A stretch of 35,042 bases of DNA from positions 1 through 35,042 of the forward strand of contig DASUYB010000002.1 in assembly GCA_036377595.1 (NCBI GenBank), written 5' to 3'. Both the position numbers and the translations under genes were made by a program. Of the stretch, positions 4,501-8,199 are shown piece by piece (position 1 is the first letter of the stretch; every line of letters starts with the position of its first letter). Source of the stretch: Longimicrobium sp. GTDB lineage: Bacteria; Gemmatimonadota; Gemmatimonadetes; Longimicrobiales; Longimicrobiaceae. The notes under the pieces are model-generated. The model had not been told where the DNA came from, made no database searches, and saw only the letters and a program-made list of their open reading frames with translations.

Positions 4501-7500
4501 CTCCGTGCGCACCTCTCCGGGCAGCTGCCGGAGTACATGGTTCCCGCGGCGTTCGTGCGGCTGGAGACGCTTCCGCTGACTCCCAACGGAAAGCTGGACC
4601 GCAGGGCGCTTCCCGCTCCCGACGCGGACGCGTTCGCCGTGCGCGACTACGAGGCGCCGGTGGGGGAGACGGAGCAGGCGCTGGCGGAGATCTGGTCGGA
4701 GCTGCTGGGAGTGGAGCGGGTGGGCCGCGGCGACCACTTCTTCGCGCTGGGCGGGCACTCGCTGCTGGCGGTGCGCGTCGTCTCGCGGGTGCGGCAGGCG
4801 CTGGGCGTGGAGGCGGAGATCGGTGACCTCTTCCTCCGGCCGGTGCTGGCGGACTTCGCGCGTGGGCTGGAGACGGCCGCGCGGGCCGAGGCGCCGGCGA
4901 TCACGCCCGTGGACCGGACCGCGCCGATCCCGCTCTCGTTCGCCCAGCAGCGGCTGTGGTTCCTGGAGCGGCTGGGGGATCTGGGCGGGACGTACCACAT
5001 CCCCACTCGCCTGCGGCTGAAGGGCGAGCTGGACCGGGATGCGCTGGCGGGCGCGCTGGACCGGATCGTCGCCCGCCACGAGGCGCTGCGCACCACCTTC
5101 GCGGAGGTGGACGGCGTCCCCGAGCAGCGGATCGCGCCGGGGGAGGCGAGCGGGTTCGCCCTGGTCGAACACGACCTGAGCGGGGCGGCCGACGCGGAAG
5201 CCGAGCTCGAGAGGTGGATGGACGAGGAGGCGCGCACGCCCTTCGACCTGGAGCGCGGCCCGCTGATCCGCGGGCGCCTCATCCGGCTGGCCGCGGACGA
5301 TCACGTGCTGCTCGTCACGATGCACCACATCGTCAGCGACGGCTGGTCGATGGGGGTGCTCTTCGGCGAGCTCTCCGCGCTCTACGCCGCCTTCCGCCGC
5401 GGCGAGCCGGATCCGCTTCCCGGGCTGCCGGTCCAGTACGCGGACTACGCGGCCTGGCAGCGGGGGTGGGTCGAGGGCGAGCTGCTGGAGCGGCAGGCGA
5501 GCTACTGGGCGCGGGCGCTGGCGGGCGCCCCCGAGCTGCTGGAGCTGCCCACCGACCGTGCGCGTCCGCGGAAGCAGGACTTCGCCGGCGACTCGGTGGA
5601 CGTGGAGCTGGACGAGGCGCTGACCGCGGCGCTGAAGGCGCTCTCGCAGCGGCACGGCGCCACGCTGTTCATGACGCTGCTCGCCGGCTGGGCGACGGTG
5701 CTCGCGCGGCTCTCGGGCCAGGACGACGTGGTGATCGGCACCCCGTCGGCGAACCGGGGGCGGCGCGAGATCGAGGAGCTGATCGGCTTCTTCGTGAACA
5801 CGCTGGCGCTGCGCGTGGACCTCTCGGGCGCGCTCACCGTGGCGGAGCTGGTGCGGCAGGTGCGGGCGCGGGCGCTGGAGGCGCAGCAGAACCAGGACAT
5901 CCCCTTCGAGCAGGTGGTGGAGCGGGTGCAGCCGGCGCGCAGCCTGGCGCACACGCCGCTCTTCCAGGTGATGTTCGCCTGGCAGAACGCCTCGGAGGGC
6001 CGGCTGGAGCTCCCCGGCCTCAGGCTGGGGGGCGTGGGCTCGGCGTCGCAGCCGACGGCGAAGTTCGACCTGTCGCTCTCGCTGGGCGAGGCAGGCGGGC
6101 GCATCGTGGGGAGTGCCACGTACGCCACGGCGCTGTTCGAGCGCGCGACCGTGGAGCGCTGGCTGGGCTACCTGCGGCGCGTGCTGGAGGAGATGGCCGC
6201 GGACGAGAGCCGGCCGGTGGGGCGGCTGGCGCTCGTGCCGGAGAGCGAGCGCTCCCGGGTGCTGGAGGAGTGGAGCCGCACGGAGGCGGCGGAGCCAGGC
6301 GAATCGTGCGTGCACGCGCTCTTCGAGGCCCAGGTGGCGCGCACGCCCGACGCGGAGGCCGTGGTCTTCGACCGTGACCGCCTCACCTACGCCGCGCTGA
6401 ACGCGGCCGCCAACCGGCTGGCGCGGCGGCTCCGCGGGGCCGGCGTGGGCCCCGAGGCGCGCGTGGGCGTGATGCTGGAGCGCTCCGCCGAGCTGGTGGT
6501 CGCGCTCCTGGCGGTGCTGAAGGCCGGCGGTGCATACCTCCCGCTCGACCCGGCGCTTCCCGCCGCCCGCCGCGCCGCGCTGGCGGCCGACGCGGGCGCC
6601 GGCGTGCTGGTGACGCGCGAGCCGGCGCTGGAGGGCTTCGCCGGGACGATCGTCTCCCCGGAGGAGGCGGAGGGGGAGGACGGGAGCGACCTCGCACTCG
6701 ACGTCCCGGCTGCCGCGCTGGCGTACGTCATCTACACCTCCGGCTCCACCGGCACGCCCAAGGGCGTGGGCGTGGCGCACGCCGAGGCCGCCGCGCACTG
6801 CCGCGCGGCGGCGGCGGCGTACGGGCTGACGCCGGCGGACCGGGTGCTGCAGTTCGCCGCGGTGGGCTTCGACGTCTCGCTGGAGCAGATGCTGGCGCCG
6901 CTCGCGGCCGGCGCCTGCGTGGTCGTGCGCGGGAGCGAGGTCCCGACGCCGCTGGAGCTGGCGCGGCAGGCGGCGGCGCAGGGACTCACCGTCATCAACC
7001 CCCCGACGGCGTACTGGCACCAGCTGGCGGCGGACGCGGCCGCGCTGGAGCTGCTCGCCCGCAGCGTGCGGCTGGTGATCGCCGGCGGCGAGGCGATGAG
7101 CCCGGCGGCGGCGCGCGGGTGGTCGGCCGGCCCCGCGGCCGGCGTGCGGCTGCTGAACGCCTACGGTCCCACCGAGGCGGTGGTCACCTGCACGGCGTAC
7201 GACGTGCCGCCCACGCTGCCGGAGGGGGCGGTGCACGTTCCCGTGGGACGGCCCCTCCCTGGGCGCGCGGCGTACGTGCTGGACGAGTCGGGCGAGCCGG
7301 CCCCGCTGGGGGTGCCCGGCGAGCTGTGCATCGGCGGGACGCTGGCGCGCGGCTACCTGGGGCGCCCGGCGGCGACGGCGGCGGCGTTCGTCCCCGACCC
7401 GTTCTCCCCGGCGCCCGGCGCCCGGATGTACCGCACCGGCGACCGCGCCCGCTGGAGGTTCGAAAACGCGGAAGTGCGGGAGTGCGGAAGTGCGCTGGAT

Positions 7501-8199: not shown

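Follow-up and report, generated by a model that had tools for sequence, protein, structure and literature searches.

How did a palindromic repeat come to lie in frame, at the same place, in two A domains of a single NRPS protein? The hairpins that raise this question were found in a window of 35,042 nucleotides (the whole stretch of DNA analysed here), which is contig C2 of the 7.2 Mb draft genome of a Longimicrobium sp. of the Gemmatimonadota (G000). The initial annotation had considered both a preferred site, whose state varies by module, and duplication of a module after insertion. The features of the window on which our analysis rests are the following.

864..1172, + strand: A-domain end truncated by the contig edge, with an ordinary linker (empty site) just upstream (A8 match, census)
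1543..8199, + strand: NRPS gene with both hairpins in frame (open reading frame)
3049..4620, + strand: A domain 1, filled (motif bounds, A8 match)
4204..4308, + strand: first copy of the repeat, of the CESAK/SHSRTFA type, in the equivalent position of A domain 1; 105 nt, exceeding the ordinary linker by 31 residues (inverted repeats, sequence, census)
6313..7863, + strand: A domain 2, filled (Pfam AMP-binding and AMP-binding_C; bounds from motif search)
7456..7548, + strand: palindromic repeat in place of the A7-A8 turn of A domain 2; 93 nt, exceeding the ordinary linker by 27 residues (fold, inverted repeat, junctions compared with filled and empty domains)
7474..7494, + strand: left inner arm, GTGCG octamer units (inverted repeat)
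7524..7544, + strand: right inner arm, CGCAC octamer units (inverted repeat)
9796..11280, + strand: A domain with an empty site, i.e., an ordinary linker (census, motif bounds)
13021..14463, + strand: A domain with an empty site, i.e., an ordinary linker (census, motif bounds)

Two hairpins in one NRPS gene

The hairpin reported for the second A domain was readily recovered. The arms of the inverted repeat span 7457-7486 and 7516-7545, and the inner arms are 90% complementary. Folding of the 7457-7545 region gave -56.4 kcal/mol, compared with -40.3 kcal/mol for shuffled sequence (z -4.56), and none of 200 shuffles folded as well. The hairpin had been placed at 7474-7544 and its ends correctly read as VRECGSA and ALAHSRT, but the segment replaced in A domain 2 is slightly wider, beginning after TGG and ending before GTTCTGGAG. 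The bare 8-mer GTGCGGRR was not enriched in the window (11 occurrences, 12.4 expected), whereas the octamer-based 13-mer GTGCGGRAGTGCG, allowing up to two mismatches, occurred 21 times against 5.8 expected. The signal therefore resides in tandem octamers.

Both hairpins lie inside the 1543-8199 reading frame, which runs uninterrupted across each. In the three other A domains that the window contains, whose A8 motifs are at 876, 10981 and 14164, the RTGD...LEFL linker has its ordinary length of 17 residues, as first described. Searching A domain 2 against Pfam identified AMP-binding and AMP-binding_C only, with the insert uncovered and no auxiliary catalytic domain, and an Rfam scan of the window returned no family.

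Two further palindromes, apparently intergenic, were observed at 18205-18284 and 21407-21488; their octamer-like units, ACGGAGGA and ACGCGGAG, differ from those of the hairpins described above, and the genome seems to hold several octamer-palindrome families. The end of a second NRPS, at 14464-16416, carries a carrier domain followed by two tandem thioesterase stretches.

A repeat family and its one coding site

The element has the structure (GTGCGnnA)n, loop, (TnnCGCAC)n, and belongs to a dispersed palindrome family found at many other places in the window genome. With a strict hairpin pattern, GTGCG hairpins were detected in 9 of 10 genomes of the genus and in one sister-genus genome (G010), with traces in another genome (G018), and in none of 40 genomes from other families of the order. 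The coding potential of the flanks could be scored for 71 hairpins, a non-random sample drawn from search hits and scored by a simple codon model. Fifty were not intragenic; the remaining 21 were, and all 21 lay at the A7-A8 site. By eye, the flanks of the listed intergenic copies showed no obvious common sequence.

To establish how often this site is occupied, we read the A7-A8 linker in 215 A domains from six genomes, a set built from searches and selected regions. The repeat was present in 54 of them: 23 in G000, 23 in G003, four in G002, two in G001 and one each in G008 and G009. An additional filled domain of the window genome (C192:13847) was read although missed by the motif filter, raising the total to at least 55. 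The window genome thus has 24 of its ~98 NRPS A domains filled, and reading in five further species of this genus added 31 filled domains; since the regions of these other species were partly selected for containing matches, only the G000 fraction is a fair rate. A pattern search pointed to at least three further filled sites, incompletely read: one on G002:C622 and, at 2.8 and 14.5 kb, two on G003:C152. The two hits in the window are at homologous positions, as proposed, but are far from being the only copies, and the idea of a preferred site with a state varying by module was borne out by this census. Filled domains were clustered on certain contigs (0/5000 shuffles).

Filled domains read RTGDxxRW, insert, LEFLGR; the usual LPDG(T) codons, which in empty domains stand between W and LEF and thus between A7 and A8, are missing. 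All 54 census inserts were bounded in the same codon region, by W on the left and LEF on the right, shared a single orientation, had lengths divisible by three and kept the reading frame open, adding 9-84 residues. TGG preceded the site in 53/54 filled and 118/157 empty domains. Comparison of filled and empty junctions revealed replacement of codons, with neither interruption nor target-site duplication, and no enrichment of dyads was seen at the empty site (stems of at least 5 bp in 7% versus 8%). Inserts read in reverse orientation often still gave open frames, so stop codons by themselves do not account for the single orientation; common descent could.

Two insert lineages, of the CESAK/SHSRTFA and ECGSALDP/THSRTAV types, were common to several species. 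In G003, a second palindrome (GTCCCTCCCCCAGGCAGTTTTGGGGGAGGGAC or close variants) was nested in the loop of nine of the filled domains read (loci L155-L158 and L179), giving up to 84 extra residues. Two other observations concern A-domain ends in G000. Those at C1:68479 and C116:2724 are near-identical, perhaps owing to an assembly split or a recent repeat. Several matches to A8-A10 were split in two pieces on contigs C194, C43, C141, C192, C65 and C1, as expected if another domain interrupts A domains after A8.

Related genomes provided natural controls. In G005, which has 49 A domains, the strict pattern detected no hairpin and the junction pattern no filled site. Conversely, G004, G006 and G010 had hairpins but, at the cut-off used, no A domains, and they too had no filled site. 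Filled sites were thus found only in genomes where the repeat and A domains occur together. Sister genera with NRPS (G014, G015, G018 and G020) yielded matches to a long-linker pattern but no GTGCG-filled site, and the ordinary RTGD lay inside the match wherever the listed portion reached the site. Outside the genus, none of 89 relatives had the junction pattern. A search of 84,980 species genomes, a collection that may omit records near the window, gave 27 stretches matching it, of which only one (L113, from this genus, with the same contig position as G008:C360) was an A domain. Taken together, these results demonstrate that in coding sequence, as far as sampled, the repeat family is confined to one site, the NRPS A7-A8 turn.

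As for the origin of the repeat itself, a PF01797 family search identified two RAYT genes in the window genome, L147 (on C130) and L148 (on C192). Each locus is flanked by its own REP-like repeat, which centres on AGTCCGCGAAGGCGGACT and has no relation to the GTGCG family; one GTGCG array lies ~1.3 kb away. A RAYT origin of the GTGCG repeat was rejected because both RAYTs carry a different repeat, and the PF01797 search yielded no candidate for the enzyme behind the intergenic family.

Spread between modules and possible origins

In a tree of A-core sequences the two filled domains of the window fell into different clades and are thus not sisters, and the starred branches force at least 14 changes between the filled and empty states. 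The A-sub tree was poorly resolved and forces only three. Flank identity of the window pair was at background and the two inserts are of different types. That both domains are filled and belong to one protein is what duplication of an already filled module would produce, but their separate clades and background flanks refute this reading for the pair, and their different insert types also speak against it; across the census, too, insert similarity did not track the similarity of the adjacent flank. Copies at A7-A8 are distributed over A domains not closely related to one another.

Identity profiles revealed how sharply the inserts are delimited. Inserts 92-98% identical were found amid flanks at the ~78% background identity; over the nearest 15 nt, identity was hardly higher in pairs with alike inserts, and in pairs whose inserts are 94-96% alike the differences begin right at the junction. 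Mantel tests on the nearest 9-30 nt detected no significant correlation between insert and flank in two genomes, while the weaker correlations seen farther out in G003 may reflect gene-cluster structure. Since inserts are alike and flanks at background, the element behaves as a unit. Ordinary gene conversion that includes the flanks thus received no support from the identity and Mantel tests beside the insert. A near-identical 31-nt loop was shared by six A domains on three contigs, and the nearest loop of an A-domain loop was another A-domain loop in 16 of 21 cases, a conservative figure because L124, used as a comparator, is also a copy from an A domain. As regards the suggestion that the hairpins might drive recombination between modules, the core-sub correlation was -0.07 in filled and 0.41 in empty domains of G000, compared with 0.28 and 0.31 in G003, so that the two genomes disagree.

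We favour, with a probability of about 45%, a few founding insertions followed by copying between A domains by recombination. The intergenic repeat would have entered the A7-A8 turn in a few founding events, giving rise to at least the CESAK/SHSRTFA and ECGSALDP/THSRTAV lineages, and recombination in which the flanking conserved blocks, A7 and A8, pair up would have carried the insert to other A domains. Between two filled domains, exchange via the repeated arms could then homogenise loops independently of flanks. Copying between A domains would entail a constant position, orientation and set of replaced codons, with no other gene affected; in particular, replacement of the same codons each time is more easily explained by templated copying than by plain insertion. 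Against this account, co-conversion of flanks predicts a rise in identity beside the insert, and barely any was seen. Furthermore, the founding insertions were not found, and founding and copying events are not countable separately.

The main rival is a site-specific mobile element, an enzyme repeatedly inserting the palindrome at a sequence offered by the conserved A7-A8 region and removing the turn codons. We regard this as a serious possibility, if a doubtful one: the single site and single orientation, the sharp edges, the TGG ahead of almost every filled site and the frequent openness of reversed inserts all agree with it, but it sits uneasily with turn codons that are replaced rather than interrupted or duplicated, with intergenic copies that share no flank obvious by eye, with an empty site that is not enriched in dyads, and with the lack of a candidate enzyme, both RAYTs carrying another repeat. 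It is very unlikely, in our judgement, that insertion was random and that copies survived in coding sequence only where a loop accepts them. Such neutral tolerance would suit inserts that look unconstrained and occupy a turn between conserved motifs; it predicts, however, use of thousands of other protein loops in varied positions, orientations and phases, whereas 21/21 scored coding copies lie at one codon site, in one orientation although others are often open.

Positive selection offers another explanation: the extra residues would aid hinge motion or partner docking of the enzyme, or else the hairpin would tune translation at the passage from A-core to A-sub. The insert immediately precedes the A8 hinge, so named in PMC8097286, the two insert lineages persist across species, and catalytic motifs were kept about equally often in filled and empty domains. 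Differences inside inserts were nevertheless spread nearly evenly over codon positions 1, 2 and 3 (239/202/260 and 19/18/20), no compensatory changes were seen in the hairpin arms, the range of 9-84 extra residues is wide, and most A domains have no insert. Domestication therefore appears unlikely. With little codon-position bias and no compensatory changes, the inserts look like translated filler. As judged from their open frames, they are presumably translated as 9-84 extra residues, and the loop is probably tolerant and under little amino-acid selection. The A domain has many relatives of solved structure, and those among the alignments listed have few residues between the insert-flanking positions and no insert here; A domain 2 modelled with AlphaFold on an alignment of four rows (mean pLDDT 57) gave a structure too poor to interpret.

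Comparison with known repeats and significance

The nearest known kind of element is the Rickettsia palindromic element (RPE), likewise a short palindrome that occupies genes in frame and adds a segment to their product (PMC10969869). The likeness to RPE, drawn from their description, extends to an in-frame position in a continuous host protein (54/54 here). RPE targets are many unrelated genes, whereas all 21 intragenic hairpins here are in A domains and replace codons. We place the A7-A8 element with coding palindromes, although it lacks the scattered targets of RPE. REP/REPIN sequences with RAYT are dispersed palindromes too, and mostly extragenic; in our non-random sample 50 of 71 scored copies were not intragenic. 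RAYT genes are present in this genome as well, but REP/REPIN sequences adjoin the RAYT gene, whereas here the RAYTs are flanked by another palindrome. REPs seldom overlap genes (14/1,067 16-mers in SBW25; PMC3116915), compared with 21/71 scored copies in our non-random sample. The target-site duplication of MITEs was not seen here, codons being replaced and none duplicated. PARCEL, which also has dyad symmetry, codes for protein and is believed to move within genomes (PMC2996958), consists of tandem 25-residue amphipathic repeats in ORFs without assigned function, unlike the one insert per A domain in one enzyme loop described here. Interrupted NRPS A domains, with methyltransferase domains between A8 and A9 (PMC8097286), likewise accommodate extra sequence at a permissive place, but these are enzyme domains inserted elsewhere in the A domain, as opposed to a short repeat-derived hairpin between A7 and A8. 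We found no published report of repeats at A7-A8 in the open-licence literature.

In-frame selfish palindromes scattered over Rickettsia genes were known; here, one codon site of one enzyme family is occupied repeatedly in several species, and a single protein can have filled modules next to empty ones. The system is thus a natural experiment in the movement of small non-autonomous repeats from one paralogous coding site to another. On a broader and somewhat improbable reading, a miniature palindromic element would home to one conserved coding site across NRPS modules, with the A-domain family as its niche, laying down repeated A-core/A-sub joints that shape A-core exchange. A role in such exchange is attractive because natural A-core swaps retain the A-sub domain (PMC8097286). 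The inserts mark an A-domain loop that appears to accept 9-84 extra residues, and this loop adjoins the A-core/A-sub border, a border of importance to both natural and engineered module exchange.
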